This document shows, piece after piece, positions 11,177 through 31,894 of a DNA stretch of 61,733 nt. This DNA comes from Melioribacteraceae bacterium (GTDB lineage: Bacteria > Bacteroidota > Ignavibacteria > Ignavibacteriales > Melioribacteraceae), in contig WGCV01000022.1 of assembly GCA_015493615.1 (NCBI GenBank), positions 80,001 through 141,733 on the forward strand, read 5' to 3'. The position numbers and the translations under genes were made by a program. The notes under the pieces were generated by a model. It was not told the origin of the DNA. It made no database searches and worked only from the letters and a program-made list of their open reading frames with translations. Position 1 is the stretch's first letter. Each line of letters begins with the position of its first letter.

Positions 11177-11182
11177 TTTTTT

Positions 11183-12451
11183 ATGAGTTTAATTGCGTCG
11201 ATAAAAAACAATCCTCTTCTTGTGAAGAACTTTTCTTCTCTAACATTACTCCAGTTTTCAAACTATCTTTTCCCTCTGATTACTTTTCCATATCTTGTTC
11301 GGGTTTTAGGGCCTGAAAAATTCGGCTTAATTAACTTTGCCGCGGCGTTTGTGGCGTATTTCAGCGTTTTTACCGATTACGGGTTTAACCTTTCAGCGAC
11401 GCGGGAAATATCAATTCATAGAAAAGATATTGGAAAAGTAAGCTCTCTGTTTTCGAATGTAATGACTACAAAGCTGATTCTATTTTTTACGGGAGCGATT
11501 GTTTTTCTTCCTCTCTTATTTTTAATCCCCAAGTTTTCAGCCGATTACCTGATTTACATGGGAACATATCTATTTGTTTTCGGAAGCGTCCTTTTCCCCA
11601 GTTGGTTTTTTCAGGGAATGGAAGAAATGAAATATATTACGATAATTAACATCGCTGTAAAAACGGTTTGGTTGATTTCTGTCTTCCTCTTTATTAAATC
11701 TTCTGCTGATGCTTTATTACTCGTTTTATTGAATTCTGCTTCATTAATATTAATCGGGGCAATTAGTTTAATTGTGATTAAAACAAAATTTCATATTTTT
11801 TTCAGAAGACCACTTGTTTCGGAGATTACGCGGCAGCTATCGGAAGGATGGTATTACTTTGTTTCCACTGCGTCGATAACGCTCTACACAAACTCAAACA
11901 TTTTCATACTCGGACTTTTTACAAACAACGAAGTTGTAGGATATTTTGCCGCTGCGGATAAACTTCGTATGGCGATACAAGGATTGTTCGGCAATGCCGC
12001 GCAAACCGTTTTCCCCCATTTATCGCTGATGTTTGAGGAATCAAAAATTAAAGCGGTTCGTTTTGTTAAAAAATATCTCCGTTTAAGTCTGCTTGTCGCG
12101 GGTATAGTTACATTAACGGTTTTTATTTTCTCAAAGGAAATTGTTGTAGTGGTTCTCGGACAAAATTATTTGAGTTCGCTGCCGGTTTTTCGTGTTATTC
12201 TTTTCCTCCCAATTATTATATTAGTGAGCAATATTTACGGGATTCAAGTAATGTTAAATCTCGGATATAAAAAGGAGTTCTTCAAAGTAATTTTTTATGC
12301 GGGAATCGGAAATCTGATTTTGTCTTTTGTTTTAGTGCCAAAATATTATGCAATCGGTACGGCTTTTGCGGTAACAATTACTGAGATAATTGTTTCTCTC
12401 GGTATGTGGGCATTTACACAAAAAAAGAAGTTACTGAAGGAAAACGATTAG
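11183..12451 (+). CDS. Polysaccharide flippase (Wzx/MATE-type)
   Basis: A 422-residue integral membrane protein with about 12-14 hydrophobic helices. The N-terminus (NFSSLTLLQFSNYLFPLITF, then PYLVRVLGPEKFGLINFAAA) is typical of the oligosaccharide flippase family, which turns lipid-linked repeat units from the inner to the outer leaflet of the inner membrane. It begins six bases after the EnvC-like gene and opens the polysaccharide cluster. Substrate cannot be told. Confidence in the family is high. Confidence 0.93.
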   Translation: MSLIASIKNNPLLVKNFSSLTLLQFSNYLFPLITFPYLVRVLGPEKFGLINFAAAFVAYFSVFTDYGFNLSATREISIHRKDIGKVSSLFSNVMTTKLILFFTGAIVFLPLLFLIPKFSADYLIYMGTYLFVFGSVLFPSWFFQGMEEMKYITIINIAVKTVWLISVFLFIKSSADALLLVLLNSASLILIGAISLIVIKTKFHIFFRRPLVSEITRQLSEGWYYFVSTASITLYTNSNIFILGLFTNNEVVGYFAAADKLRMAIQGLFGNAAQTVFPHLSLMFEESKIKAVRFVKKYLRLSLLVAGIVTLTVFIFSKEIVVVVLGQNYLSSLPVFRVILFLPIIILVSNIYGIQVMLNLGYKKEFFKVIFYAGIGNLILSFVLVPKYYAIGTAFAVTITEIIVSLGMWAFTQKKKLLKEND

Positions 12452-12479
12452 TTGTGGTTATTAGTTTAAATTAGTCATC

Positions 12480-12564
12480 TTGTAAAACGATTTGACAAAA
12501 TACCCGCCTTTTTGTAAAATGATTTGACAAAACAACTATTTTCTTGTAAAATAGAGTGTCAAAT
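12480..12564 (+). promoter_or_regulatory. Three-copy 32-bp periodic imperfect-palindrome array (putative operator)
   Basis: Three related 21-base sites start at 12480, 12512 and 12544, exactly 32 bases apart. Each opens with TTGTAAAA and ends with a TTTGACAAAA or GTGTCAAAT half, so each is an imperfect inverted repeat (TTGTAAAAT against TTGTCAAAT). Copies 1 and 2 differ by one base; copy 3 is more diverged. The last lies 10 bases before the ATPase start codon, covering its likely promoter and leader. I infer a protein-binding array controlling the ATPase gene. Confidence 0.65.
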
Positions 12565-12574
12565 TGGAATAATT

Positions 12575-13768
12575 ATGGATATTGAAAAAATAATTGAATT
12601 ACATCGACAAGCTCTTTCACTAAACAGCAAATACAAGAAAAAGAGATTTGTTGCTCAAAAAATATTGGAGGATGCCGGGAATCATTTTGTCGGCGTAATA
12701 GGTCCGCGCGGGGTTGGGAAATCGGTATTATTCAGGCAGTTAGCTTCTCTTGACGAAAATTCAATTTACATATCGATTGATTCGGTTGATTTCGAGAATT
12801 TGTTTGAGCTTGTAAAAACCTTGTATGAAACTTACGGGTACAAAAATTACTTCCTCGATGAAATCCATTTTTATAAGGATTATGAAAAAGACTTAAAAAC
12901 TATTTATGATTTTTTAGACGTAAAAGTTTTTTTTACAAGCTCGGTTTCTTTATCTCTTTATGAATCTGCTTACGATTTATCGAGAAGAGTGAAAATATAT
13001 AATATTTTTCCATTTAGTTATCGGGAATATCTTTTTTTTAGGGAAGATAAGAATTTGAATGTATTGAAATTGATTGACATTAAAAATAAAGAATGGAATC
13101 CGGAACATATTAGAAACGGGCATCTTTTTCAAAAATATATTTCCGGCGCTTTGATGCCTTTCTCCCTTGAAGAAGCCGATATTTTGCCAATGATGAAAAA
13201 TATTTTGGATAAAATAATTTTTAAGGATATTCCGTTAGTTGCAAGTTTAAGGATTGAAGAGTTAGATATAATAAAAAAAATTGTCGGATTTATAGGCAAA
13301 TCCCAAATTGACGGAATAAGTTATTCAACCCTTTCCAACAACTTAAAAATTACCAAATACAAGGCGGAACAATATATAAACCTTTTGCAGAAGGCTTTTG
13401 TTGTGAATGTGATTCTCCCGAAAGGGACAAACGTTCTGAAAGAGCCGAAGATAGTATTGGGACTGCCTTTTAGACTGCTTTATAAAGATTACGACGAGGC
13501 AATAGGTGGATTAAGAGAAGATTATTTTGTCGGGTGCGTAAAAATGTCCGGGAAGAAAATTCATTACTTAAAAACAAAAAAGGGAAAAAAAACGCCTGAT
13601 TATTTAGTAGAAGAAAATGGGAAGGAGTATATTGTTGAAGTCGGCGGAAAGGGAAAAGGAATTAGCCAATTTAAAGGAATAGATTTGGAAAAATCAATTA
13701 TTTTCACTGATGCAAATATTGTTGAGGGAATTAAAAGACCATTGTTTCTATCGGGATTTTTAAGTTGA
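12575..13768 (+). CDS. AAA-family ATPase with DUF4143 domain
   Basis: A 397-residue protein of the AAA_14/DUF4143 group, predicted ATPases of unknown role common in Bacteroidota and archaea. Walker A GPRGVGKS lies at 43-50, Walker B YFLDEIH at 92-98, and a sensor-like TSSVSLSLYES near 121. The C-terminal third has the DUF4143 nuclease-like end (KKTPDYLVEENGKEYIVEVGGKGKG). I start at 12575, not 12524: the upstream ATG lies inside a regulatory repeat and its 17 extra residues only translate that repeat. It sits inside the polysaccharide cluster but has no link to it, so it is probably an inserted accessory gene. Confidence 0.85.
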   Translation: MDIEKIIELHRQALSLNSKYKKKRFVAQKILEDAGNHFVGVIGPRGVGKSVLFRQLASLDENSIYISIDSVDFENLFELVKTLYETYGYKNYFLDEIHFYKDYEKDLKTIYDFLDVKVFFTSSVSLSLYESAYDLSRRVKIYNIFPFSYREYLFFREDKNLNVLKLIDIKNKEWNPEHIRNGHLFQKYISGALMPFSLEEADILPMMKNILDKIIFKDIPLVASLRIEELDIIKKIVGFIGKSQIDGISYSTLSNNLKITKYKAEQYINLLQKAFVVNVILPKGTNVLKEPKIVLGLPFRLLYKDYDEAIGGLREDYFVGCVKMSGKKIHYLKTKKGKKTPDYLVEENGKEYIVEVGGKGKGISQFKGIDLEKSIIFTDANIVEGIKRPLFLSGFLS

Positions 13769-13776
13769 AATTAAAT

Positions 13777-14856
13777 ATGAAATACGATTATCTGATTGTC
13801 GGAGCGGGATTTGCCGGAGCGGTAGCGGCGGAAAGATTAGCATCCAAAGGGAACAAAGTTTTAGTGGTTGAAAAGCGTTCGCACATCGGGGGCAATGCGT
13901 ACGATGAATACGACGAACACGGAATTTTAGTCCACCGCTACGGACCTCATATTTTTCATACCAACAGCAAAGATGTGTTTGATTATTTATCGCAATTTAC
14001 AGAGTGGCGGTTTTACGAGCATCGCGTTCTCGCGCAATTAAACGGCGAACTTTATCCCATCCCGATTAACAGAACCACGATAAATAAATTGTACGGTAAA
14101 AATTTCCGGACTGACGAGGAAGTGCGGCGATTTTTTAATTCCGTAAGGAAAAACATTAATACGGTTACAAACTCGGAAGAAAAAATCGTTAGTCAAATTG
14201 GCGAGGATTTGTTTGAAAAATTCTTTAAGCGCTACACAAAAAAGCAGTGGGGAATTGAAGCGAACCAATTATCGCCTTCAGTGTTGGGTCGTATCCCCGT
14301 TAGAACAAACACCGATGATAGATATTTTACGGACAAATATCAGTTTATGCCCAAAGAAGGTTATACTAAAATGTTCGAGCGGATGTTGAATCAAAAAAAT
14401 ATTGAAATTATGTTAAACACAGATTACAAAACAATTGTAAACGATGTTATATTTGACAAAATGATTTACACCGGACCGATTGACTCTTTTTTCGATTATA
14501 AATTCGGTAAGCTGCCATATCGTTCGATTAGGTTTGAGTGGGAACACTTTGATGAGGAATTTCATCTGAAAGCAACTTCGCATAATTTTGTCGGTAACGA
14601 GATCGAATTTACACGCAAAACAGAATATAAATATATGACCGGACAAAAAAGCGGAACGACTACACTCAGTACGGAATATCCGACATCTAAAGGAGATCCC
14701 TATTATCCGATTCCGAATGATGAGAATTATTCGCTTTATCAGAAATACAAAATTGAATCTCAAAAGTTAAAAAATGTTGAATTTATCGGACGTTTAGCGG
14801 AATATAAATATTACAATATGGATCAGGTAGTGGGGAAGGTTTTGTTGTTATGGTAA
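13777..14856 (+). CDS. glf: UDP-galactopyranose mutase
   Basis: A 359-residue flavoprotein converting UDP-galactopyranose to UDP-galactofuranose. The FAD-binding motif GAGFAG is at 9-14, followed by VVEKRSHIGGNAYDEYDEHG and the signature RYGPHIFHT. The KQWGIEANQLSPSVLGRIPV segment and the final YKYYNMDQVVGKVL match the family. ATG 13777 gives the normal MKYDYLIVGAG start; a TTG at 13765 overlapping the upstream stop is less likely. It implies that galactofuranose is part of the surface glycan made by this cluster. Confidence 0.95.
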   Translation: MKYDYLIVGAGFAGAVAAERLASKGNKVLVVEKRSHIGGNAYDEYDEHGILVHRYGPHIFHTNSKDVFDYLSQFTEWRFYEHRVLAQLNGELYPIPINRTTINKLYGKNFRTDEEVRRFFNSVRKNINTVTNSEEKIVSQIGEDLFEKFFKRYTKKQWGIEANQLSPSVLGRIPVRTNTDDRYFTDKYQFMPKEGYTKMFERMLNQKNIEIMLNTDYKTIVNDVIFDKMIYTGPIDSFFDYKFGKLPYRSIRFEWEHFDEEFHLKATSHNFVGNEIEFTRKTEYKYMTGQKSGTTTLSTEYPTSKGDPYYPIPNDENYSLYQKYKIESQKLKNVEFIGRLAEYKYYNMDQVVGKVLLLW

Positions 14857-14890
14857 CTATACGATATAAACGAATAAAATATTTGGAAAT

Positions 14891-14909
14891 TATACGATGA
14901 TGTCGTATA
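14891..14909. repeat. Short perfect inverted repeat before the SGNH gene
   Basis: TATACGA (14891-14897) and TCGTATA (14903-14909) form a perfect seven-base inverted repeat with a five-base loop. A third TATACGA occurs near 14863. It lies in the short gap between glf and the SGNH hydrolase gene and might be an operator or only AT-rich chance. Confidence 0.35.
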
Positions 14910-14942
14910 TCAACATTTATAAGAAAGCAATTATATATTAAT

Positions 14943-16154
14943 ATGAAAAGATTACCAAAAATATTTTTATTTATTGGCTTTTTGGAAATTGTTTCAGGTG
15001 TAATTGTATATCCTAAAATTGCAATATATTGGAGGAATTTGCCCATAATTAATTATTATAAACCAATGATGCAATATTCATATTTTTCAATAATTATTGG
15101 TTCAATAACAGCTTTTTTAGGAATAATTTTTAAAAAAACTAAGAAAGAAATATTAATAAATATTTCTTTCCTTTTTATTTCGTTGTCATTTATTTTTTTA
15201 AGTGACAGGTTATTACTAGCTAAATATGGTTTGGGGCTTTGGGAATATGACTGCGTTTTGCATTATAAACATCGTCCAAATACAACTTTTTCTTGGGGAG
15301 AAAAATTTGAGAACAAATTAATTAAAATAAATTCACAAGGTTATCATGATGATGAGTTTACTTTTAAGAAAAGGAATAATGAATTAAGAATTTTTGTATT
15401 AGGGAATTCAATAACAATGGGGCATGGCGTAACAAAAGAGGAAACTTTCTCTTCTCAATTAGAATTGTTTTCTTCAAAACAGAAAGTAATTAATGTTTTT
15501 AATCTTGGTGTACAAGGATATAGCACTGAACAAGAATTAGAAGTTTTTAAAAGAGAATTAAAATTTAATCCAGACATAGTTTTATTGGAATTTTGTTTAA
15601 ATGATATCACTGAACCGATATATGTTAATAAAGACCTGGGCGGCAGCGGTTTCGATTATCATAGAGTTTTTCAAACCAAAAATAAACTTATTGGCCTTTT
15701 TGTAAATGAAACCGGATTTGGAAGATTTATTTACTGGCAGAAATATAAAAGTGAAATATCTAAGGAAAGAGAAAAGGAATTATTTTCAATCAAACAACTC
15801 TCTATAAATCCTTTTAGTAATGAAAAATTTAAAAAGAGTTGGAATAGAACAAAAAATTCAATTATAGAAATAAAAAAAATTTGCGGTAGAAAAAATATTC
15901 CTTTCATCATTTTAATTTTTCCCTATACATTTCAATTATGGAAATATGATTTGCAAAAACCTCAACAATATCTTAAGAAATTTTTAGCATCTGAGAAAAT
16001 CCATTATATAGATTTTACTGAAGTTTTTGAGAATAATATGACGACAAAAGACATTAAAAAATGTTTTTTAGACGAAGATCATTATACAAAGTTTGGACAC
16101 TCAATTATTGCTAAAACAATTTTTGAGTTTTTAACTAAAAACTCTTTATTATGA
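14943..16154 (+). CDS. Membrane-anchored SGNH/GDSL hydrolase
   Basis: A 403-residue protein with three N-terminal hydrophobic helices (about 6-24, 47-63, 70-88) and a periplasmic SGNH hydrolase domain. Block I is GNSITMG with the nucleophile Ser156; block II glycine is in NLGVQGYS (about 188-194); block III Asn is N220 in CLNDI; block V is D377-E378-D379-H380. All four catalytic elements are kept, so I expect an active esterase, plausibly an O-acetyl esterase or acetyltransferase acting on the glycan. The gene is notably AT-rich. It overlaps the next gene by four bases. Confidence 0.85.
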   Translation: MKRLPKIFLFIGFLEIVSGVIVYPKIAIYWRNLPIINYYKPMMQYSYFSIIIGSITAFLGIIFKKTKKEILINISFLFISLSFIFLSDRLLLAKYGLGLWEYDCVLHYKHRPNTTFSWGEKFENKLIKINSQGYHDDEFTFKKRNNELRIFVLGNSITMGHGVTKEETFSSQLELFSSKQKVINVFNLGVQGYSTEQELEVFKRELKFNPDIVLLEFCLNDITEPIYVNKDLGGSGFDYHRVFQTKNKLIGLFVNETGFGRFIYWQKYKSEISKEREKELFSIKQLSINPFSNEKFKKSWNRTKNSIIEIKKICGRKNIPFIILIFPYTFQLWKYDLQKPQQYLKKFLASEKIHYIDFTEVFENNMTTKDIKKCFLDEDHYTKFGHSIIAKTIFEFLTKNSLL

Positions 16155-17029
16155 ATAACCCGCTAGTTACCGTAAATATTTTATCTTTTAACAGAAGAGA
16201 CGAACTGCGTCATACTTTAACAAAAGTTTTTGAGCAAGATTACAAAAACATTGAAGTAATTGTAGCTGATAACGCTTCTTCGGATGGATCGCCGGAAATG
16301 GTTGAAAAGGAATTCCCGCAAGTAAATTTGGTTCGTTTGAAAAAAAACATAGGTATTGCCGGCTGGAATAAAGGTTTTGAAATTGCTAAAGGGGAGTATG
16401 TTTTGGTTTTGGATGATGATGCTTTTCCCGAAAAAAATACGATAGATTTATGTTTGGGATCTATGCGGAATAAAGCGGAAGTGGCTTGTATTGCAATAAA
16501 TACATTGGATATTAATAAAAAAATAAGAACTAAATGGTTGCCTTCGGAAAATGTTAGAGAGTGTTTTTGGCCTGTTTTTGTCGGTTGTGCGGCGTTTTTT
16601 AGAAAAAATTATTTAGATTCCGAGCCAATGCCGAAAGATTATTTTATTTATCAACATGAATTACCTGTCTCGGCTGATATTTATTTGAATAATTATAAAA
16701 TTTATTTTCACCATAAAATAAAAGCATACCATAATTTTAAATCAGGCAATGTCTATAGTCAATTTTCCGATAAGTATTTATTTAGAAACAATCTTAAGTT
16801 TATATCAAAATATCTACCTGTTTATTTGGCAATTATGTATTGGTTTCAAGCTGTTGCGTTTTTTTTTACGCGTTCAATTAGACGACGGTGGTTTAAAGAT
16901 TATATTGAAATTGTTTTAACAGTCAAACCTTTTATATTAAATAGTAAAAAAATTAGTCTTGATTACTTTTTAATGTTACGTGATAAGCATTATTTTAATT
17001 TACCTTTAATTTCAAAATTAAGCAGATGA
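16151..17029 (+). CDS. Family 2 glycosyltransferase
   Basis: A 292-residue GT-A enzyme. The N-terminus VTVNILSFNRRDEL is the family-2 opening, VIVADNASSDGSPEM follows, and the metal/nucleotide-binding motif is LVLDDDAFP (DDD at 88-90). A hydrophobic stretch near 225-245 may anchor it to the inner membrane. It overlaps both neighbours by four bases (16151-16154, 17026-17029), so it is coupled to the SGNH gene and the next transferase. Sugar specificity unknown. Confidence 0.93.
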   Translation: MNNPLVTVNILSFNRRDELRHTLTKVFEQDYKNIEVIVADNASSDGSPEMVEKEFPQVNLVRLKKNIGIAGWNKGFEIAKGEYVLVLDDDAFPEKNTIDLCLGSMRNKAEVACIAINTLDINKKIRTKWLPSENVRECFWPVFVGCAAFFRKNYLDSEPMPKDYFIYQHELPVSADIYLNNYKIYFHHKIKAYHNFKSGNVYSQFSDKYLFRNNLKFISKYLPVYLAIMYWFQAVAFFFTRSIRRRWFKDYIEIVLTVKPFILNSKKISLDYFLMLRDKHYFNLPLISKLSR

Positions 17030-18084
17030 AAATTCTTTTTTTAGTAAATCAATTACTTAATGTTTGCGGAATAAGTAAGCATTTTTATCATTTACTTAGC
17101 GGATTAAAGGAGTTTTATCCTGAAAACGACTATTTTGTGATATGTGGCGGAGGCGACGCAATTGAAAAATTCGAGAGATTAGGCGTAAAAATATTAGTAA
17201 ATGAGAATATTAGACATGAAACAAGAACTTTAAGAGGGTATTTAAAAGGAACTTACGATATTTATAAATTTGCAAAGCGTAATAAAATAGATATCATTCA
17301 TTCTCACCACCATTATGCCGCAAGTATGGCACAAAAGGCGGTTAAATTTCTAAATAGCAAAACCGTATTTACTAATCACGGTATTTTGCCGAAAATCGGG
17401 TTGCTAAATCATTTTAACGCGGATTATTTTATTGCGATTAACGAGCATATTCGCGAATATTTGTTGGAAAATAAAATTGCTAATTCTCAAAGAATTTCGC
17501 TAATTCGTTTGGGATTCCCAAAGTTCGAATTTGAAAAGAAAAAAAACAAAAAAATTAAAGTAATTTCCGGCGGAAGATTTGTAAAAGAAAAAGGATTTGA
17601 AGACTATATTAAAGCGGTTTCAAAACTTCCTTCCGAAGTTATGGGCAAAGTTGAATTTTATTTAGCTGGTTCTGGTGAAGGAGAAGCAAACTTAAAAAAA
17701 CTTAATTATGAATTAAATGCCGGAATTGAATTTTTAGGAGAAATTGAAGATTTTCAAATTTTTTTAAAATACACTGATATTTTTGTTATGCCAACGCATT
17801 TACCAGAGGGGTTCCCAACAGTTATTATTGAAGCGGGTTTATCGAAAAATTTACTAATTGCATCTAATTTTAGGGGCGCCCAATCTGTTTTATCCAATCA
17901 AGAAGCGTTGATTTTTTCTATTGGAGATGTTGAAACTTTAACGAAATTATTAAGTGACGCAATTAATAATTATGATAAATATATCAATAAAATTGAAAAA
18001 TTGGAAAAATTAATGACGGAAAAGTTCTCCATTGAAGAAATGACTGCTAAAACATATAACTTTTATCAAAGGATTCTGCGGTGA
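17026..18084 (+). CDS. Family 4 glycosyltransferase
   Basis: A 352-residue GT-B enzyme. The N-terminal half ends in IDIIHSHHHYAASMA, and the C-terminal nucleotide-sugar domain holds GGRFVKEKGFEDYIKAV and the E-x7-E motif in PEGFPTVIIEAG, typical of retaining family 4. It probably adds one sugar to the lipid-linked unit at the cytoplasmic face. It overlaps neighbours by four bases on both sides. Confidence 0.93.
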   Translation: MKILFLVNQLLNVCGISKHFYHLLSGLKEFYPENDYFVICGGGDAIEKFERLGVKILVNENIRHETRTLRGYLKGTYDIYKFAKRNKIDIIHSHHHYAASMAQKAVKFLNSKTVFTNHGILPKIGLLNHFNADYFIAINEHIREYLLENKIANSQRISLIRLGFPKFEFEKKKNKKIKVISGGRFVKEKGFEDYIKAVSKLPSEVMGKVEFYLAGSGEGEANLKKLNYELNAGIEFLGEIEDFQIFLKYTDIFVMPTHLPEGFPTVIIEAGLSKNLLIASNFRGAQSVLSNQEALIFSIGDVETLTKLLSDAINNYDKYINKIEKLEKLMTEKFSIEEMTAKTYNFYQRILR

Positions 18085-19211
18085 GACGTAAAATTTTGTT
18101 TTTGTTTTATCGAGAGCCAAGAGTCGACGGATATTATAATACTTACAAACATTATGTTTTCCTGAATGCTTGTAAAGAGAAATTTAACGTAAGATATTTG
18201 ACATATGAGAAAATTGTTGACGGTAAATTAGTAACGCCAAAAGACGCGCCTGGCACAATTAATAAAATAGGAAATTTATTTTTAGGTAAATCTTCAAGGA
18301 TTACACATTATCAGAGTAAAAGTTTTTTCCGTGAGTATTTGAGTATTCTAAATGAGTTTAATCCAGATATTATTTATGTTGAACATGTTGTTATGATGCA
18401 GTTTATTTTAAGAAAAACGAACGGCGCGAAAATTGTTTTTTACGATGATGAAAGCGTTCTGTTTCAAAAAAGCATTGGTCTTTTACACGGACTAAAAGAG
18501 CAAGTTAAAAATTTTAATCTTGAAAAACTTGAATATCAAGGCTTAAAAAGTTCCAATTTAATATTGACAATTACCGACGAAGAAAGAGATTTCTTAAAAA
18601 ATTTAACTAATAATCGTGTTGTAACCGTATCTTGGCCAATTGATTTGAGCAAATACAGTTATAGTTTTAATCCGTATAATGATAAAAGATTTAACATTTT
18701 GTTTGTAGGTAATTTTTCTCATTACCCAAATCGTGAAGCCGCGAAAATAATTGTCAAAGAGATTTTCCCTAAATTTAAGAATAACAAAAAAACTGTATTC
18801 ACAATTGTTGGCATTAATACTCAAAGAATAAAAAATATTTTGCCGAAGGGAATAATTGTATTTGAAAATGTTCCGGATGTTAAACCTTTTTTGGAGAGAG
18901 CGGATTTATTCATCGCGCCGATATTTTCCGGCAGTGGAATGAGAATAAAAATTTTAGAAGCGGCAGCTATCGGCGTGCCGTTATTAATATCTGAAACTGC
19001 TAATTTCGGTTTTAATTTTGAAAACAATAAAGAATGTATTATTGCTGAAAACAAAAATGAATTTGCTTTCATGATCGAAAAGATTATTAATAAGTCTAAA
19101 AAAGAAATGAGAGAAATATCATTAAATGCACGAAAAATAATTGAATTAAATTTTTCGAGAGAAGTTATTGGGAAGAAATTTATAAATTATTTGGAGGAAC
19201 TTTTTGATTAA
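18081..19211 (+). CDS. Glycosyltransferase (GT4-like, Glyco_trans_1_4)
   Basis: A 376-residue GT-B enzyme. The C-terminal half carries FNILFVGNFSHYPNREAAK and the GSGMRIKILEAAAIGVPLL motif that places the phospho-binding Gly and conserved Glu of family 4. The N-terminal half (DIIYVEHVVMMQFI) is the acceptor domain. Gene composition is AT-rich like the neighbours. It overlaps the previous gene by four bases and ends five bases before the truncated transferase. Confidence 0.9.
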   Translation: MRRKILFLFYREPRVDGYYNTYKHYVFLNACKEKFNVRYLTYEKIVDGKLVTPKDAPGTINKIGNLFLGKSSRITHYQSKSFFREYLSILNEFNPDIIYVEHVVMMQFILRKTNGAKIVFYDDESVLFQKSIGLLHGLKEQVKNFNLEKLEYQGLKSSNLILTITDEERDFLKNLTNNRVVTVSWPIDLSKYSYSFNPYNDKRFNILFVGNFSHYPNREAAKIIVKEIFPKFKNNKKTVFTIVGINTQRIKNILPKGIIVFENVPDVKPFLERADLFIAPIFSGSGMRIKILEAAAIGVPLLISETANFGFNFENNKECIIAENKNEFAFMIEKIINKSKKEMREISLNARKIIELNFSREVIGKKFINYLEELFD

Positions 19212-19215
19212 TTGA

Positions 19216-19857: not shown

Positions 19858-19864
19858 CGAAAAA

Positions 19865-20503: not shown

Positions 20504-21438
20504 AAAAAATTCTCATCATATCAACAAACGCTATTGGCGATACTTACCTTTCGATGGCTGCAATACCGGTATTGAAAGAAAATTTAAATAATATTGTTGT
20601 GGATTTTGTAATAGAAGAACATTCAGCTTTTTTATTTCAACACGAGAAAACAAGAAAATTAATTATTGTGAAAAGAAGCGTTGCCGATTTGTTTCCCAAA
20701 ATGATTCAAATGCGTAAAGAGAAATACGATTATGTTTTTTCTTTTTTCCCCGGGGTTGTAAATACATTTTTTCTCTTTGGAGTACGAGCAAAATATAAAG
20801 GTGGTTTCCCCAATATTATTAAAAGAACGGAATGGGCAAATAGGAATCAGCGAGGGGTTGTTTTTGATAATCGAAAGATTAAGTTTGTTTATTGGAGAAA
20901 AGAGGAAAATTATCTTGATAGAATGATAATAATATTAAACAATTTTAATTTTGGTTTAAGCGTTTTGCAAAAGTATAATTTAGATGATAGAGAAATTTCG
21001 GAAATCTTTAATAATACGGTCGTTTTGCACCCCTTTTCACGATATGCCGACAGGAGTCTTTCACTAAATCAGATTGAAGCAATTATTGACTTTTTTATTC
21101 AACATGGAGATGTAAATTTTATTATTGTCGGAGACGAAAAGATTCTGAAAATAAATAATATGCCGGGGAAAAAAGTGGAGATAAAAGTTAAACCTCCGAT
21201 TGACGAGTTGGTTTCTCTTGTGCATAGTAAATTATTTATCAGCGTTGACTCTTTCCCGTTACATATTGCGGATGCGTACAATACGAATTTTTTAGGAATT
21301 TTTTCAACAACTAAACCTCGCTCGGTATTGGTAAATTTTAATAAAGCGATTGTTTTTGATGCAAAAGAGTTATCGGAAATTTCCGCTGAAAACATTATTT
21401 CAAAAATAGAGCAATACTTAACGGATAATGAATTTTAA
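20500..21438 (+). CDS. Family 9 glycosyltransferase (heptosyltransferase-like)
   Basis: A 312-residue GT-B enzyme. The opening KKILIISTNAIGDTYLSMAA is the family 9 hallmark (ADP-heptose:LPS heptosyltransferases), and the C-terminal half keeps VVLHPFSRYADRSLS and SVDSFPLHIADAYNTNFLGIF, which line the nucleotide site. Family 9 enzymes usually act on LPS core; here it sits at the end of a polysaccharide cluster. The next gene starts 11 bases inside it. Confidence 0.9.
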   Translation: MKKILIISTNAIGDTYLSMAAIPVLKENLNNIVVDFVIEEHSAFLFQHEKTRKLIIVKRSVADLFPKMIQMRKEKYDYVFSFFPGVVNTFFLFGVRAKYKGGFPNIIKRTEWANRNQRGVVFDNRKIKFVYWRKEENYLDRMIIILNNFNFGLSVLQKYNLDDREISEIFNNTVVLHPFSRYADRSLSLNQIEAIIDFFIQHGDVNFIIVGDEKILKINNMPGKKVEIKVKPPIDELVSLVHSKLFISVDSFPLHIADAYNTNFLGIFSTTKPRSVLVNFNKAIVFDAKELSEISAENIISKIEQYLTDNEF

Positions 21439-22165
21439 AATATTTGACATAAATATTGAGCGAATAAATTATTCGGGATTGCGTGATTTTATTTCATTTT
21501 CCATAAATAATAATAAAAAAAAACTAATCACTTATGTTACGGCGGCTTCATTAAATACGATCTACGAAAATCCGGAATTAAAAAATGTATATCATAAATT
21601 TGATTTGATTCATCCTGACGGAGTAGGAGTTTGTTGGGCTTCAAAATTTTTGTTCGGTAAAAAAGGAGCAACCGAAAAAATAACCGGCTCTGATTTTTAT
21701 CCTATTCTTGAAAAAGAGATAAAAAAGAATAAATGGAGAATTTTCTTTTTCGGTGAAACAAATACAACTTTAAATAAATTACATAATAAAGGAGAATTAT
21801 CGGAATATATTGTTGGTTCGCAAAACGGATTTAATTTTCAAACAGAGAGGTTGATTAAAAGAGTTAATTCGCTTACTCCCGATATTTTAATCGTAGGGAT
21901 TGGTGCGCCGAGACAGGAAAAATGGATAGTTGAAAATCAAGATGATTTGAATGTGAATGTTATTCTAAGCGTTGGGGAAGGAATAAAAGTTTTTGCATCC
22001 GCAGATAAAGTAAGGGGACCTAAATTTATACAAAAAGCGGGACTGGAATGGTTTGTTAGGTTAATTTATAATCCGAGAAAATTTTGGAGAAGATATTTAA
22101 TCGGAATACCGCTTTTTATTGCAAGAATTATTATATTAAAACTTAAAAAGGGGAAGGAGTATTAA
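21428..22165 (+). CDS. WecG/TagA/CpsF-family glycosyltransferase (GT26)
   Basis: A 245-residue GT26 enzyme. Diagnostic segments are YVTAASLNTIYENPEL, DLIHPDGVGVCWASKF, DILIVGIGAPRQEKWI and the C-terminal RLIYNPRKFWRRYLIGIP. WecG and TagA add the second sugar, usually an N-acetylmannosamine type, onto undecaprenyl-PP-linked GlcNAc. That points to an undecaprenyl-linked, flippase-exported glycan. No initiating phosphosugar transferase and no obvious Wzy polymerase is in the window. The C25 gene starts only five bases downstream. Confidence 0.92.
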   Translation: MNFKIFDINIERINYSGLRDFISFSINNNKKKLITYVTAASLNTIYENPELKNVYHKFDLIHPDGVGVCWASKFLFGKKGATEKITGSDFYPILEKEIKKNKWRIFFFGETNTTLNKLHNKGELSEYIVGSQNGFNFQTERLIKRVNSLTPDILIVGIGAPRQEKWIVENQDDLNVNVILSVGEGIKVFASADKVRGPKFIQKAGLEWFVRLIYNPRKFWRRYLIGIPLFIARIIILKLKKGKEY

Positions 22166-22170
22166 GCGCT

Positions 22171-25100
22171 ATGAGGAAATCAGTATTAATCATTCTTTTT
22201 GTTTTTTCGTCGGTTTTATTTTCGCAAACTTCAATTAAAGTAATCTCTTCCAATGCTTTTGAGGCGGAAATTACAATTCCCGAACCGTTTCACAAAATTT
22301 CTCATAAAGGTAAGTTCAGCGTTATTGATTATCCGGAATATAGCAATTATTCAAAAGCGGGGGAATATAAGCTGCCTTATTCAATTTTTACTTTTGCAAT
22401 TCCAAAAGGAAGCGAACCGAAAATAAAAGTTGTTTCTAAAAAGGAAGAAGTTTTAAGAAATGTTGTGCCCGCTCTCAATCCCGAAATTAAAAGATTAAAT
22501 GACTCCACGCTTGTTGAAGTTCCGGCGACCGCGCTTCCCGCTAAGATACAAAATGCAGATGATATTGAGATTCTGAACAAATTTTGGTTCCGCGATTTTT
22601 ATTGCGTTTCCGTTAAAATAAACTCGCATAAATATTTCCCGTCTTCCAATCAATTGAAAGAAATTAAAAAGTTAAAACTGAAATTCCAATTTCAGAATGT
22701 TTCTCTCAAAAATGATTCGCCAATCATTATACGAAACAGTTACGATAAATTGACGCGTTCGTTGATTTCAAATGCGGAAATCGCTGAGCAGTTCCGTTCC
22801 CATATGCCAAATAATCTTCTTGCCGACACAACCGGACAGTGGATAAACTATGATGCAGATTACATTAAAATAGCAGTTGCGCGTAATGGAATATATAGAT
22901 TTTACGGAAGTCGAATTTCAAGTTTGGGATATGATATTTCATCGATTATTCCATCGCAATTGCAACTTTATGAAAGCGGAAATTTAGTGCCAATAATAGT
23001 TTTTGACGGCAACGACGGAAGTTTTGATGAAAATGATTACATAGAATTTTGGGGACATAAAAATCGTCCGAAAGGAAATTATAAAATTATTAATGCGGAC
23101 AATGAAGAGTATAATGAATTTGAAAATCGTTACACCGATACGACTTATTATTTCTTGACTTGGAATAATGGTAACACGAAAAATTTATTTATTCAAGATA
23201 ATTTCAACAATAATTTGCAAGACACTCTTAACTATTATACGGAAATACTGCATTCTGAAAAAAACAATTGGATACAGAATATGAACGGCGATGAAACGGT
23301 CAATCAATTACCGGATTGGAATAAAAATAAAACTTGGTATTGGGGATGGATCGGGTATTGGTCGCCCACTAAAAATTTTTCGTTTTCAGCCGAAGGCGTA
23401 GTTCCGAATAAATCCGCGCGAGCTTATTTTAAGGCTTCCGTAGCGGGACTTAGAAATTATATGCGATTTAAGTTATCGGTTAACAATGTTCAATTAGATT
23501 CGCAACGAGTCAATAAATTTCATCAAGTTTTATTATCCGGCGAATTCGATTCGTCAATACTTACCGAGTCGGGAAATAATTTAAAGGAAGTATGTTTTTC
23601 GGAGGATGGCAATTACGCGGCATATGATTGGTATGAGATCGATTATCCGAGACAACTGAATTTGGTCAACGATTCTTTGACTATAATTGTTCCGAACGAT
23701 GTAAATCCGGGCGAAAAAGTTTTCTCGATTGAAAATGCAACTTCATCTTCATATATGATTTATAAAATTTTTCCTAAACTCAAAAAGATATCAAATTATT
23801 CTGTTAATAATGGGAAATTGTATTTTTCGGACACGGTTAATGTCAATAACAAATATTTTATCTGTCACGAGTCAAACATTCTTTCCCCTCAAAATTATTA
23901 CTCAAAACATTTTATCAATTTGCGCTCTTCTCAAATACAAGCCGATTACATTACAATAACAAACAAGATTTTTGATGATGATGTTGATAACTATTTGAAT
24001 TATATCTCTTCGGAATATAATCTTAATGTGTATCGCGCCGATGTCTCAGATATTTTTGACGAGTTTTCCTTTGGATATCCTTATCCGGTTGGAATTAAAT
24101 TATTCTTGTATAAGGCATATACAAATTGGAAGCAACCGAAGCCGCAGTTTGTTACATTAATCGGAGACGCTTCCTATGATTATAAATATATCAAATTTAG
24201 AAACGAAGGAGTTAAAAGCAGTATAAATTATGTGCCTTCGCGAGGATATCCTGTCGGCGATAATTGGTATGTCGCTTGGGACGAAACCGCTCCTCCTGTC
24301 CCACAATTAATGTTGGGCAGAATTCCGATTTTGAATCCCGATGAATTGGGAAATTACTTAGCGAAATTGCAAAGTGAGAATTCAAAATTGTTTGGCGATT
24401 GGAATAAACGCTCATTATTTTTCTCTGGCGGTAATCCGAATGTATCCGGTGAAATTGAAACTTTTAGAACTACGAGCGAAAGTATAATAAACCAATATGT
24501 AAAACCTAAGCCGTTGGCGGGCAAATACACACATTTTTATAAAACGGTTGATCCGCCTTCTGATTTTGGACCATATACGCAAGAAGAAGTTAATAATGCG
24601 ATAGAAAAAGGGGGCGTTTTTATTTCTTATTTGGGGCATAGCGGGACCGCCACTTGGGATAACGGGATAAATTCGGTTATTCAATTGCAGAATAACGAAG
24701 GAAGATTTCCGTTAATTACCGATTTCGGTTGCTCCACAAATAAATTTGCCGAACCGGATATAGTATGTTTCGGAGAGAGATTTATATTGGATAATAGCGG
24801 AGAGGCAATAGGTTATTTGGGGAATTCTTCATTAGGCTTTTTCACTACTTCCACTAAAATATCAAAAGTTTTTTATGAAAAGATGATATATGATTCCTTG
24901 TACACAATCGGCGAAGCTCATGCTGCGGCAAAAATAGATATGTTTAATCTTTACGGGACATCAAATGTATATCGTATTTTTGCTTATACAAATGTATTCC
25001 TCGGCGAGCCGGTTTTTCAAGTAAAGCTTCCTTATAAACCGAATCTTTCCATAAATAATTCGTCCTTAATAACAGATGTCTCGGCGTTAGATGATCAAAG

Positions 25101-27489
25101 CGATTCCGTGGCAATAAAAATTGTTTATCAAAATCTCGGACTTGCAAATGACAGTTCTTTTAATATAAAAATAGAAGAAAAATATTCGGGAGAAAATATT
25201 CATGAAAAGAATTATCAAAGAATTTTACCGGATTATTCGGATACTTTGGTGTATTTCATGCATACGAAAGGTTTAAGCGGTCCGCATATTTTGAAAGTTA
25301 CATTGGATGATGAAAATGTAATTGATGAAATTTACGAAGACGACAATCAATATAATTTCGAAATAAATGTTTACTCGACGTCAATAAGGGATTTGGTCAA
25401 TTATGATATTGAAAACGGGAATATGAGAGCATTAACTATTGTAAATCCTGTTACAAAAAAACCGTTATCCGACAAGATAAAAGTTTATTTGTCGGATGAT
25501 GGTGAATTTTCGTCGCCTGTAATATTAAATCAACCAATGGGCGCGTTTTACACTAATATAAATTTCCCCGATTTATCGCCCGACAAAAGATATTGGTACA
25601 AATTTAAAATTAATCTCGACGAAGCCGAATTTAGCGTTCCGCGTTCATTTAATACTAAATTAGATTACAAATTCTTGCTTTCGGATTCAATTTCATTTGA
25701 CAAACAATTAAGAGAACATTTAAGTATTGATAGAGTCGGTTTATCGCTTGTCGATGACAGCATAAATATTTCGGTATTGTCTGCCGGTTGGTATTGTGGC
25801 GCTACATGTGTTATTGCATTAAACGGTGAAAATTTATTAAGAAATTCATTTTTTCCGGGGATGGGAATTGTAGTTTTTGATTCTGTTTCGTTTCATGTTG
25901 ATACTACAGCTGTTTTTCCCTTGTTCGGGAATCCTGACAATGTTCAAGCGTTAGCGGATATGATAAATGGAATTCCTACCGGAAAAATTGTAGCGCTTGG
26001 GGTCGCAGATGATGCAAGAAATAATATGTCCACTGAACTGAAAAATGCTATAAAAGCGCTTGGGAGCAGTAAAATAGATTCGCTTCAATTTAGAGGCTCT
26101 TGGGCTATAATTGGTAGGAAAGGCGCGCCTACCGGTTCCGTGCCCGAAGGAGTAAAAGGACCTTACGACGGACAAGTTTATATTGATACGACTTATGTTC
26201 TCAAGAACGCAGAAGGAAACTTAACTACCACTCTTATCGGTCCCGCGCCTCATTGGAAACAGCTGACTGTTTCCGATTCGATACCTGCCGGCAGTTCAAT
26301 TAATTATAGAATTTTGGGGAAGAAATCGGAGAATGTTTATGATACGCTGAATTATCTCAGTTTACATAACGGGAGCGCCGATTTGTCGTTCCTTAATGAT
26401 TCCGGTTACTCTTACATTAAAGTTCAAGCCGATTTTAAGGCGTCTCCCGAAAAAGTTTCTCCTGTGTTTAAGTCTCTCGGAGTCGATTATAACACTAACG
26501 CCGAACTCGGCACAAACTACCAAGTTGTGTCAATCAGTAAGGACACCTTAAAACAGGGAGAGGATGTTAGTTTGAATTTTTATGTTTATAATGTGGGCGG
26601 TTCGACTGCGGATAGTTTTTATGTTAGCGTTGATTTGAAAAAGGGGAACACTTTTGAGCGCAATGTATTCTCCCGATTGGTTGATTCGCTTGGCGCGGGG
26701 AATCGGCGGAAATTCTCGTTTGATTACAACACCGCTTCTTTATCGGGCGAAAATAATTTTACGATTCGTATTGACACTTCAAATGTCGTCCCTGAATTTT
26801 TTGAGGACAACAACTATTATCCGGTCTCGTTTTATGTAGAAAAGGACACTACGCGCCCGACGGTTGAGATTACATTCAACGGTAAGGAAATTTTGGACGG
26901 GGAATATATTTCGCCCGAGCCTGAAATAAAGATAAATCTGGACGACGAAACGCTTGTGCCCGTTACGGATACTTCCGCCGTTACTCTCTTTTTGAATAAC
27001 GAACCGGTTTATTATTCAGGCAATCCCGATATTAATTTCTCTTTCTCATCGGAAAATCCCAAAGTTACCGTTGAATATACGCCGAAACTTAAAAGCGGGT
27101 CTTACACTCTTGCGGTATTGGCAAAAAACGGTTTGGGCACGCTTGCCGACAGTTCGGGTATAATTAAGAATTTTACCGTAAACAGCGAAGCTAAACTGCT
27201 GAACGTTTATAATTATCCGAATCCCTTTAGCGACGATACATACTTTACTTTTAAGCTGACAAGAATCCCGGATAAAATGGGAATTGATATTTACACGGTT
27301 GCCGGAAGATTGATAAATAAAATAATAATCTCTCCAAGCGAACTGAATTATGACTTTAATAAAATTTACTGGGACGGAAAAGATTTTGACGGAGATAGAA
27401 TTGCAAACGGAGTTTATTTCTATAAAATCAAGATGAAGTTTGGCGATAAGGAAATTACGGACATTCGTAAGCTTGCCGTGATGAGATAA
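22171..27489 (+). CDS. C25 (gingipain/PorU-like) protein with ILEI-like domain and T9SS C-terminal signal
   Basis: A 1772-residue secreted protein. Domains in order: signal peptide (1-18); N-terminal region with pro-domain-like beta strands (about 20-590); C25 caspase-fold domain (about 600-960) with catalytic His823 in SYLGHSGTATW and Cys854 in DFGCSTNKF, close to the His-Cys spacing of gingipains; CARDB-like beta sandwiches (about 970-1080 and 1450-1560); a region resembling the ILEI/FAM3 domain (about 1225-1325, with GIVVFDSVSFHVD, PTGKIVALGVADDA and RGSWAIIGRKG); and a T9SS sorting domain (about 1675-1772, with NYPNPFSDDT). The architecture resembles proteins annotated as PorU2, a proposed second T9SS sortase. 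Peptidase versus sortase activity cannot be decided here. Confidence 0.88.
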   Translation: MRKSVLIILFVFSSVLFSQTSIKVISSNAFEAEITIPEPFHKISHKGKFSVIDYPEYSNYSKAGEYKLPYSIFTFAIPKGSEPKIKVVSKKEEVLRNVVPALNPEIKRLNDSTLVEVPATALPAKIQNADDIEILNKFWFRDFYCVSVKINSHKYFPSSNQLKEIKKLKLKFQFQNVSLKNDSPIIIRNSYDKLTRSLISNAEIAEQFRSHMPNNLLADTTGQWINYDADYIKIAVARNGIYRFYGSRISSLGYDISSIIPSQLQLYESGNLVPIIVFDGNDGSFDENDYIEFWGHKNRPKGNYKIINADNEEYNEFENRYTDTTYYFLTWNNGNTKNLFIQDNFNNNLQDTLNYYTEILHSEKNNWIQNMNGDETVNQLPDWNKNKTWYWGWIGYWSPTKNFSFSAEGVVPNKSARAYFKASVAGLRNYMRFKLSVNNVQLDSQRVNKFHQVLLSGEFDSSILTESGNNLKEVCFSEDGNYAAYDWYEIDYPRQLNLVNDSLTIIVPNDVNPGEKVFSIENATSSSYMIYKIFPKLKKISNYSVNNGKLYFSDTVNVNNKYFICHESNILSPQNYYSKHFINLRSSQIQADYITITNKIFDDDVDNYLNYISSEYNLNVYRADVSDIFDEFSFGYPYPVGIKLFLYKAYTNWKQPKPQFVTLIGDASYDYKYIKFRNEGVKSSINYVPSRGYPVGDNWYVAWDETAPPVPQLMLGRIPILNPDELGNYLAKLQSENSKLFGDWNKRSLFFSGGNPNVSGEIETFRTTSESIINQYVKPKPLAGKYTHFYKTVDPPSDFGPYTQEEVNNAIEKGGVFISYLGHSGTATWDNGINSVIQLQNNEGRFPLITDFGCSTNKFAEPDIVCFGERFILDNSGEAIGYLGNSSLGFFTTSTKISKVFYEKMIYDSLYTIGEAHAAAKIDMFNLYGTSNVYRIFAYTNVFLGEPVFQVKLPYKPNLSINNSSLITDVSALDDQSDSVAIKIVYQNLGLANDSSFNIKIEEKYSGENIHEKNYQRILPDYSDTLVYFMHTKGLSGPHILKVTLDDENVIDEIYEDDNQYNFEINVYSTSIRDLVNYDIENGNMRALTIVNPVTKKPLSDKIKVYLSDDGEFSSPVILNQPMGAFYTNINFPDLSPDKRYWYKFKINLDEAEFSVPRSFNTKLDYKFLLSDSISFDKQLREHLSIDRVGLSLVDDSINISVLSAGWYCGATCVIALNGENLLRNSFFPGMGIVVFDSVSFHVDTTAVFPLFGNPDNVQALADMINGIPTGKIVALGVADDARNNMSTELKNAIKALGSSKIDSLQFRGSWAIIGRKGAPTGSVPEGVKGPYDGQVYIDTTYVLKNAEGNLTTTLIGPAPHWKQLTVSDSIPAGSSINYRILGKKSENVYDTLNYLSLHNGSADLSFLNDSGYSYIKVQADFKASPEKVSPVFKSLGVDYNTNAELGTNYQVVSISKDTLKQGEDVSLNFYVYNVGGSTADSFYVSVDLKKGNTFERNVFSRLVDSLGAGNRRKFSFDYNTASLSGENNFTIRIDTSNVVPEFFEDNNYYPVSFYVEKDTTRPTVEITFNGKEILDGEYISPEPEIKINLDDETLVPVTDTSAVTLFLNNEPVYYSGNPDINFSFSSENPKVTVEYTPKLKSGSYTLAVLAKNGLGTLADSSGIIKNFTVNSEAKLLNVYNYPNPFSDDTYFTFKLTRIPDKMGIDIYTVAGRLINKIIISPSELNYDFNKIYWDGKDFDGDRIANGVYFYKIKMKFGDKEITDIRKLAVMR

Positions 27490-27544
27490 ATATCAATTTA
27501 TCAAAATATTTATTACATTTGAAAAACAACAAAAAGAGGTTAAT

Positions 27545-28873
27545 ATGAAAAAAATAGCTGTACTTGTTTTGGCGCTTTTCTTTACGACGCCGGTTTTTTC
27601 ACAGTTTGATTTTAACGATCAAGATGCCGGAATGCTGCAGGGCGGCTTGGGAACTTCGTGGATTAACGGTTCCCCTTATTTTACTTTCAGATTCAGACCC
27701 GAAGTTGCCGTTGGAAAATTCGGAATGGGCTTGGACTTAAACCTTGAATTTAACGGCGACGGTATTCGCGCTGAAGATTTCAAGACCGTCGGCGATTATC
27801 TTGCCATTATCCGCTATATTCGCTGGGGACACAAGCACGATCCTCTTTATATACGCGTTGGCGCGCTCGATTACGCTACGCTCGGCTACGGCAACATAAT
27901 GTATATGTATAATAACAGTCCGAGTTTCGACGCGCGTACAATTGGGCTTTCTTTTGATTTTGACACGGATAAATTCGGGCTTGAAACGGTTTACAGCAAC
28001 TTTGCCGAGCCGGGCGTGCTTGGCGTGCGCGGTTTTTTCCGTCCTCTTAAATTTACCGCGATAGGGGATATTCCTATTATCGGCGGGCTGGAAGTTGGCG
28101 CATCCTACGCTACCGATCTTAACAAAAACGCCGCCGTCCTTGGCGGTTATACCGACGCGAACGGGAAATTTGTCGATACGCTTACGACCGACAGACCTCA
28201 AATTGTTTCGGCTGACGTTGGACTTCCTCTCTTCAAGAACTCGATTTTCGATGCAAAACTCTATTACGCTTTTACCAAAATTCTTGATTACGGTCAGGGA
28301 CAATCCTACGGATTATTATTTAATATGAACTTCCCGCTTCTTGATATTAAGATGAAGTTTGAAAGAACTATGAACGGCAAACAATATCTGCCTTCTTATT
28401 TTGACGCGCTTTACGAATTGGATAGGTTTAGCTACAGTAATAATTCCGTTAGCAGTAAACTTGCTAAACTGCAGAACGCCGATTTGGAAGACGACAACGG
28501 CTGGTACGGGGGATTGCTTGTAAGAGTGCTTGGAACATTTGATATTCGCGGAAGTTACCAGCGTCTTGAAAAAAGCCCGAACAGCGGACTTCTGCATCTC
28601 GGAACAGAAGTGGCGCCCGCCGGAATGCCTTTCCTATTTAGAGCCGGTTACGATAAAACCGACATCGGCGGCGAGACGGAAATTTTCAAGCTTGACGACC
28701 GTTCTCTTTTCTTTACGGAACTCGGTTACAAGCCTTATCCGTTTCTGATTGTTTCAATGGTTTACAAATGGACATTCCAACCGGTATATGACGCAAACGA
28801 CGCGGTCATATCGTACGAACCGCAGAAAAGAATTGAGCCGAGAGTTTCGTTTGTTTATCCTCTTGATTTTTAG
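27545..28873 (+). CDS. Outer-membrane protein, unknown function
   Basis: A 442-residue protein with a signal peptide cut after TPVFSQ and a chain of amphipathic strands ending in RVSFVYPLDF, so probably a beta-barrel. No family is recognised with confidence. An AAGAGG at 27533-27538 precedes the ATG. It lies 55 bases after the C25 gene and before a strong terminator, so it may be cotranscribed with it. Base composition is clearly richer in G+C than the glycosyltransferase genes upstream. A partner barrel for the C25 protein is possible but unproven. Confidence 0.75.
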   Translation: MKKIAVLVLALFFTTPVFSQFDFNDQDAGMLQGGLGTSWINGSPYFTFRFRPEVAVGKFGMGLDLNLEFNGDGIRAEDFKTVGDYLAIIRYIRWGHKHDPLYIRVGALDYATLGYGNIMYMYNNSPSFDARTIGLSFDFDTDKFGLETVYSNFAEPGVLGVRGFFRPLKFTAIGDIPIIGGLEVGASYATDLNKNAAVLGGYTDANGKFVDTLTTDRPQIVSADVGLPLFKNSIFDAKLYYAFTKILDYGQGQSYGLLFNMNFPLLDIKMKFERTMNGKQYLPSYFDALYELDRFSYSNNSVSSKLAKLQNADLEDDNGWYGGLLVRVLGTFDIRGSYQRLEKSPNSGLLHLGTEVAPAGMPFLFRAGYDKTDIGGETEIFKLDDRSLFFTELGYKPYPFLIVSMVYKWTFQPVYDANDAVISYEPQKRIEPRVSFVYPLDF

Positions 28874-28894
28874 AGATAAAATGAATTTCGTTTT

Positions 28895-28924
28895 AAGCGC
28901 AGTCAAACGGCTGCGCTTTTTTTG
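28895..28924 (+). terminator. Intrinsic terminator
   Basis: AAGCGCAG (28895-28902) pairs with CTGCGCTT (28911-28918), followed by a run of T. It ends the outer-membrane protein transcript. Confidence 0.9.
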
Positions 28925-28946
28925 TTTACTGAGGATGTAAATTAAT

Positions 28947-29045
28947 AGGAGGCTTTGCAGAACCTAATTTATATGTCATTTTGATCCTCCGCCTTGGCGG
29001 ATTGGCGGACTTAATATGACAAATTTAGGTTATGCTAAAGTCTCT
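28947..29045 (+). repeat. MITE-like interspersed repeat, copy B (internally deleted)
   Basis: The left end GGCTTTGCAGAACCTA, the ATATGTCATT segment, a GC hairpin (TCCGCC/GGCGGA), then directly the right end AATATGACAAATTTAGGTTATGC. Compared with the copies at 5800 and 61583 it lacks the central 50-60 bases holding the GAATCTC and GGACGG/CCGTCC parts but keeps both terminal inverted repeats. Confidence 0.8.
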
Positions 29046-31833: not shown

Positions 31834-31894
31834 AGCTACCTCATTTTTTATCTTAAAATAATAAGAAAAAGAAAATAAGTTGTGTCTGAAATCA

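Follow-up and report, generated by a model that had tools for sequence, protein, structure and literature searches.

A PorU2-type C25 protein encoded beside glycan genes in a Melioribacteraceae bacterium

PorU of Porphyromonas gingivalis (PG0026), the C25-family sortase of the type IX secretion system (T9SS), is considered to attach cargo to anionic lipopolysaccharide (A-LPS) through an amino-sugar of the latter, according to the available parts of two papers (PMC7468200; PMC13086638), and the Wbp/Vim linking-sugar pathway makes the glycan end that accepts this cargo in the same species (PMC7468200, same parts). Here we compare with these systems a 1772-residue C25 protein of the PorU2 type that is encoded at the end of a polysaccharide gene cluster in a Melioribacteraceae bacterium (GenBank assembly GCA_015493615.1, contig WGCV01000022.1). 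The whole stretch analysed, positions 80,001 to 141,733 of the forward strand (61,733 nucleotides), is called the window, and coordinates are counted from its first letter. The neighbourhood of this gene with a WecG/GT26 glycosyltransferase (GT) gene is more than chance, because it recurs in related genomes and is unseen around the PorU gene. On account of the analogy with P. gingivalis PorU, we tentatively favour, at somewhat short of an even chance, a conserved surface-glycan module in which PorU2 would ligate T9SS cargo to the glycan of the cluster beside the general PorU.

Like PorU, the window protein has the C25 Cys/His dyad, an N-terminal region and a C-terminal domain (CTD) alignable to the PorU model; unlike PorU, it falls below the PorU cut-off, has Ser at the position of a PorU-specific Arg, carries ILEI and CARDB domains and has its gene within a glycan cluster instead of next to one of the PorV family, in a genome that has a separate true PorU. 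The best curated model is NF052324, ‘putative type IX secretion system sortase PorU2’, whose one-line description is silent on glycan clusters. The POMGnT1 stem and the FAM3 (ILEI) proteins share the predicted fold of the ILEI domain; of the three residues that contact the sugar, the window protein has one replaced. Rhombosortase, also a C-terminal sorting enzyme, belongs to a different protein family from PorU2, is membrane-embedded and has a different sorting signal. The exosortase/PEP-CTERM/exopolysaccharide (EPS) system resembles the locus in that a C-terminal sorting enzyme is genetically tied to polysaccharide genes, but the enzyme is of a different family, membrane-embedded and paired with a different sorting signal (PMC7468200, available parts). 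No porU paralogue beside glycan genes is described in those parts of the same paper. The name PorU2 was not met in the open-licence literature on type IX secretion or PorU homologs, as far as its text was available, and no title among the matches listed from the open-licence literature on T9SS with exopolysaccharide, exosortase, Ignavibacter or Melioribacter points to C25 genes in glycan clusters, a link that may still be published.

A PorU paralogue separate from PorU

22171–27489, plus strand: PorU2-type C25 protein, 1772 residues (PF01364, 3.8e-56; NF052324, 407.9 bits; NF033707, 267.2 bits)
26839–27477, plus strand: C-terminal part matching the PorU model, CTD-like (NF033707 positions 874–1093, 79.5 bits)

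Pfam recognises Propeptide_C25, C25, ILEI and CARDB domains in the protein. The PorU model NF033707 gives 267.2 bits against a curated cut-off of 420, and NF052324, matched nearly full-length, gives 407.9 bits, just under a cut-off of 450 that is passed in 0 of the 294 genomes of the class. The PorU2 model outscores the PorU model here and at two related loci (396 vs 277.7 bits at L063; 402 vs 378.5 at L125). The PorU of the genome is a separate gene on contig C41 (912 bits) that adjoins a PorV-family gene; the translocon gene sprA is also present, and of 13 matches to PorV2 (NF052325) in the genome, the best at 178 bits, none lies above the cut-off of 325. PorU above cut-off was found in 58 of 59 genomes of the order, a draw overlapping with, and not identical to, the order members of the 294-genome set. 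A tree of C25 catalytic regions, built from 133 of 150 regions (17 were dropped as the matched core was missing or outside 550–1000 residues), resolves PorU and PorU2 from each other and from a third class, whose members have about 1900 residues; support is 0.836 for the PorU2 group and 1.0 for that third class, and PorU forms one group except for the tip used as root. From the named relatives of the window protein the class is taken to be Ignavibacteria; the closest of them is from a Melioribacteraceae metagenome-assembled genome, with 90 percent identity over the last 998 residues. The protein is a PorU paralogue of the PorU2 type and not the PorU of its genome; the initial annotation had called it PorU-like, and a reading as PorU itself is not supported, given the orthologue elsewhere, the scores below both curated cut-offs and the missing PorU Arg.

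The C-terminal sorting domain expected of T9SS type A cargo is found as the part that aligns to the PorU model and as a FlgD_ig domain in 25 of 28 aligned PorU2 members, the window protein itself having no separate Pfam CTD match. This CTD-like terminus and a large, beta-rich stretch that separates the CTD from the catalytic domain (seen at residues 1085–1450) would both suit a protein that is itself T9SS cargo or a structural component of the glycan layer, and whose catalysis serves its own processing. We consider such a role improbable: the dyad is invariant in 94/94 PorU2 proteins, and the CTD is no mark of mere cargo, because PorU of this genome aligns to that C-terminal part of the model as well.

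Linkage to glycan genes in related genomes

21428–22165, plus strand: WecG/TagA/CpsF-family GT26 (PF03808, 1.9e-41; TIGR00696, 97.7 bits, above the cut-off of 69)

The GT26 gene is the last glycosyltransferase gene of the cluster and ends five bases before the C25 gene (22165 to 22171), as had been noted in the initial annotation. For comparison, 80 PorU2 loci were picked from the 294 class genomes on the C25 match and not on their neighbours, and 5 with fewer than two genes upstream were dropped, leaving 75; open reading frames (ORFs) were called mechanically as the longest ones, and a glycan gene was counted only if BLAST matched it at 1e-5 to a window protein or a named marker protein, any other being scored as absent. 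WecG/GT26 lies within three genes upstream at 59 of these 75 loci and in 9 of the 12 sampled families (f1 22/23, f2 12/15, f3 1/1, f19 6/6, f14 5/6, f13 3/3, f24 3/3, f8 5/8, f15 2/2, f5 0/5, f4 0/2, f23 0/1), a linkage that supports the glycan-plus-C25 module proposed in that annotation. It is the immediate upstream gene on the same strand at 42/75 loci and on the opposite strand at 7/75; at the 42 the gap has a median of -4 bases and is 17 bases or less in 36, as judged from mechanical starts. At least one recognised glycan gene stands among the six upstream genes at 70 of the 75 loci, and at least two at 67, such that the observation held to speak against the module, namely relatives in which the C25 gene is never next to glycan genes, was not made. 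Across related loci the glycosyltransferase content varies and the WecG–C25 pair stays. Pfam named six of ten representatives of recurrent upstream genes that had no BLAST match to the window (three glycosyltransferases, one flippase, one Capsule_synth protein and one AMP-binding enzyme), found no match for the other four, and recognised a FemAB-like protein in none of the ten.

WecG is missing from all 20 control PorU loci, and only 1 of the 20 has glycan genes in its six upstream positions (the GT9 pair of the window's own genome, on the other strand). Among the matches listed, WecG lies within 10 kb of PorU2 in 27 of 29 order genomes (the exceptions being G149 and G218) and within 10 kb of PorU in 0 of 25; WecG is present in 45 order genomes. 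An ILEI match was used as the mark of PorU2 for co-occurrence, its placement inside a C25 gene being confirmed only in the fetched loci. Of the 294 class genomes, 133 have ILEI and WecG, 55 ILEI alone, 18 WecG alone and 88 neither (Fisher p about 1.6e-19, relatedness ignored), and the corresponding numbers for the 59 order genomes are 43, 3, 2 and 11. In four discordant genomes (G157, G215, G140 and G222) the ILEI or C25 match lies in a shortened open frame, and the contig with this match measures 4,449 bases in G157 and 7,658 in G222; the fifth, G093, has WecG and no sign of PorU2.

The third C25 class (loci L140–L159) is embedded in a DegT-PGT-CapD(-Wzi) glycan cluster. At L141 a GT2 glycosyltransferase, a DegT aminotransferase, a PF02397 sugar transferase and CapD stand upstream and GlmS downstream, and at L149 a Wzi-like protein adjoins the C25 gene (PF14052, 29.3 bits vs a cut-off of 30.1). 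By BLAST, with marker proteins that came from L141 and L149 and thus from two of the 20 loci counted, at least one of PGT, DegT, CapD and Wzi lies among the six upstream genes in 17/20 and at least two in 15/20. WecG was found in 0/20 third-class loci, and the third-class markers upstream of PorU2 in 0/75. Together with the PorU counts, two C25 classes are therefore each tied to a different glycan cluster, and PorU to neither. The third-class gene is often followed by an unknown 439-residue protein, an amino-acid kinase and a carbamoyltransferase-like gene.

Most loci are from related families and the counts ignore phylogeny, as would suit a neighbourhood that reflects inherited gene order only, with no functional tie. 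This explanation is improbable in our view, as the glycosyltransferase content changes around a constant WecG–C25 pair, the PorU2 mark and WecG are jointly absent in 11/59 order genomes, and another C25 class is likewise associated with glycan genes, but of a different set. The glycan and PorU2 probably work together, because the gene link is kept across many families.

The glycan cluster, the barrel and flanking genes

11183–12451, plus strand: Wzx-type flippase, Polysacc_synt (PF01943, 8.7e-60)
12524–13768, plus strand: AAA_14/DUF4143 ATPase (PF13173, 4.9e-23), preceded by a 72-base gap
13765–14856, plus strand: UDP-galactopyranose mutase, GLF (PF03275, 4.4e-71)
14943–16154, plus strand: SGNH/GDSL esterase-like protein (PF00657, 3.5e-08)
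16151–17029, plus strand: GT2 glycosyltransferase (PF00535, 2e-24)
17026–18084, plus strand: GT4 glycosyltransferase (PF00534, 6e-25)
18081–19211, plus strand: GT4 glycosyltransferase (PF13692, 2e-18; TIGR03087, 1.5e-27, below cut-off)
19216–19857, plus strand: short GT2-like protein (PF13632, 7.2e-07)
19865–20503, plus strand: methyltransferase (PF13847, 4.6e-11)
20500–21438, plus strand: GT9 heptosyltransferase-like protein (PF01075, 5.2e-05; TIGR02193, 5.7e-11, below cut-off)
27545–28873, plus strand: predicted outer-membrane beta-barrel (model with a predicted local distance difference test score, pLDDT, of 72.8; no Pfam match)
28895–28918, plus strand: terminator-like hairpin with a T run at the end of the unit (10-pair stem; consensus match only)

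The glycan genes extend from the flippase gene (11183) to the GT26 gene (end 22165) within a plus-strand run of collinear genes at 7330–28873, in which intergenic gaps range from -11 to 86 bases. The glycan genes, the C25 gene and its candidate glycan-binding domain lie in one apparent transcription unit; terminator-like hits in 9000–28999 number 17 vs 15.2 expected from shuffling, which is barely above. The combination of flippase and glycosyltransferases that marks a Wzx/Wzy cluster is found by Pfam in the window. No Wzy polymerase or initiating transferase was named by Pfam in 11183–22165, and genes matching PF02397 and PF00953 lie on other contigs. The AAA_14/DUF4143 ATPase at 12524, the sole non-glycan gene named within the glycan run, is probably an insertion. 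Two TTGACA-17-TAAAAT promoter-like motifs, 32 bases apart, occupy 12492–12552 before and at the mechanical start of the ATPase gene, an arrangement that fits an inserted gene with its own promoter.

Upstream of the glycan genes, 7330–11176 encodes a TPR protein, a DUF4292 protein and an M23 peptidase, and DUF4292/M23 relatives likewise precede glycan genes in several relatives (e.g. L060, L063 and L071). Two proteins of 444 and 487 residues without a Pfam match are encoded at 2982–5786 beside a YjbH-like gene (below cut-off), and relatives of both adjoin the third-class C25 cluster at L155. On the minus strand, 30769–31926 encodes a T9SS-type secreted protein of 385 residues (Por_Secre_tail) near the module. 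Tandem PorU2-type C25 genes occur at L091, L097, L108, L124, L126, L132, L134, L197 and L198 (families f4, f8 and f14). At two loci outside the phylum, KSB1 L057 and LCP-89 L059, BLAST identified no glycan gene among the nearest genes; L059 has two BatA/BatB-like neighbours that score below cut-off. A small protein of 219–262 residues with an ‘LPVEL.YF...TATE’ type domain and a CTD, a candidate cargo, is encoded just downstream of PorU2 at L064, L069, L081, L082, L083, L089, L096 and L101, and none lies between the C25 gene and the barrel gene in the window.

The outer-membrane barrel that the initial annotation placed after the C25 gene is borne out as a predicted barrel at 27545–28873. Its relatives occur in 20 related loci at 45–59 percent identity, and it lies within three genes downstream in 19/100 PorU2 loci (3 of the loci being without any downstream gene), 0/20 third-class loci and 0/20 PorU loci, and hence only with PorU2 among the 140 loci examined. 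The model has only a generic porin-type fold: among the matches listed, a fold search gave only generic porins, mostly of the Occ family, AlgE and LamB (root-mean-square deviation mostly 5–6), and no FadL or PorV chain, which excludes nothing. Assignment to PorV/PorQ was rejected, as NCBIfam gives only ImpL63 at 2.7e-16, far below its cut-off, and no profile similarity supports an assignment to Wzi (PF14052; hhalign probability of 4 percent against a Wzi-like set).

Active site, ILEI domain and proposed role

24637–24639, plus strand: codon of catalytic His823 (His in 94/94 PorU2, 18/18 third-class and 21/21 PorU proteins)
24730–24732, plus strand: codon of catalytic Cys854 (Cys in 133/133)
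24829–24831, plus strand: codon of Ser887, at the PorU Arg position, taken as Arg722 of P. gingivalis (alignment of 133)
25858–26127, plus strand: ILEI/POMGnT1-stem-like domain (PF15711, 8e-23; 81.2 bits, cut-off 27)

The Cys/His dyad is invariant across all 133 aligned sequences. Arg722 of PorU, 32 residues after Cys, is conserved in PorU and absent in gingipain proteases (PMC4560394, available parts); the sole Arg column conserved in PorU after Cys sits 33 residues on in our alignment (32 in that paper) and is occupied by Ser in the window. Loss of the PorU-specific Arg with retention of the dyad would be consistent with a surface cysteine protease of gingipain-like mechanism, held in or on the polysaccharide by ILEI or by its own CTD, that trims for example proteins of the glycan layer or the barrel with no ligation. 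This is the main rival to cargo ligation, possible but somewhat unlikely, since the PorU model is matched over more than 700 residues, among them those ahead of the catalytic domain, and by the C-terminal part, and it is not obvious why a simple protease would need to be linked to two glycan clusters that are unrelated.

ILEI is present in 27 of 28 aligned PorU2 proteins. A model of residues 1085–1450, from the beta-rich stretch that precedes the CTD, has a pLDDT of 92.3; its best PDB matches are the POMGnT1 stem structures 5ggl and 5ggj (target template-modelling score of 0.81 against 5ggl_A), and FAM3 proteins are also matched. The POMGnT1 stem binds beta-linked N-acetylglucosamine (GlcNAc) through Arg129, Asp179 and Arg207 (PMC9802357, available parts). 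In the window the Asp179 position is Asp and the Arg207 position Arg, whereas the Arg129 position is Pro, such that the GlcNAc-contact triad is incomplete by its first Arg; the three positions were placed by way of FAM3C spacing, with an uncertain alignment for distant members. From its modelled fold, ILEI is a candidate glycan-binding domain.

In the mechanism that we infer, from export and glycan binding to cargo and transfer step, the glycosyltransferases, GT26 and the flippase would build a polysaccharide, and the last genes would provide a T9SS-exported PorU2, joined in some members of the family by an outer-membrane barrel. PorU2 would most likely act on the cell surface at the polysaccharide of the cluster, where the ILEI domain may hold the glycan while the Cys/His site would remove the CTD from at least one T9SS cargo protein and pass the cargo on to the glycan. 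The glycan would in this way have its own attaching enzyme beside the general PorU. What the comparison shows directly are the gene linkage, the co-occurrence, the domain content, the dyad and the separation of the clades. The functional tie between the glycan and the C25 gene is much better supported than this chemistry.

Several observations weigh against a ligase dedicated to the glycan. The Arg that marks PorU (21/21) is found in 0/94 PorU2 and 0/18 third-class proteins. The linking-sugar (Wbp/Vim) pathway of P. gingivalis has no recognised counterpart in the cluster, in that Pfam recognised no linking-sugar or amino-sugar linking gene set there, with Wbp, VimE and WbpS not searched by name; a FemAB/VimA-type similarity (pepcterm_femAB) in the genome is weak (44 bits vs a cut-off of 260) and lies on another contig. 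Over the 28 PorU2 proteins, the Arg129 position is Arg in 9, the Asp179 position Asp or Glu in 23, and the Arg207 position Arg in 19. ILEI occurs without WecG in 55/294 class genomes and WecG without ILEI in 18/294, and in families f16, f17, f21, f6 and f22 (47 genomes) ILEI is present in most members and WecG in one. Families f5, f4 and f23 are without the WecG link in the sampled loci, and f4 has WecG and ILEI in 11/12 genomes, yet WecG within three genes of C25 in 0/7 sampled loci. A second set of 20 loci covered families that are divergent, doubtful or little sampled; after removal of 2 that were too short, WecG stood no more than three genes away in 4 of the 18 usable loci, and the six upstream genes included a recognised glycan gene in 8 and none in 10. 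Outside the class, WecG is present in 8 of 18 ILEI-positive genomes and lies within 10 kb of the listed ILEI match in 0/18, the nearest, by eye, being about 30 kb away in G324.

A broader proposal is that Ignavibacteria have parallel C-terminal ligation systems, in which the general PorU and two further C25 enzymes, the latter each hard-wired to its own polysaccharide (the GT26/Wzx glycan or the PGT/DegT/CapD glycan), would sort different T9SS cargo groups to different surface glycans with active sites that lack the PorU Arg; we hold this to be unlikely. Attachment of T9SS cargo has been worked out chemically in a few oral species, namely P. gingivalis and T. forsythia (PMC7468200, available parts), and P. 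intermedia. An enzyme of the C25 family whose gene lies with those for its presumed acceptor glycan offers a direct genetic handle on cargo attachment beyond the oral species, and the absent PorU Arg a sharp test of the role of that residue. If ligation of T9SS cargo to the glycan of the cluster is true, the module would give the T9SS a counterpart to the exosortase/EPS link.

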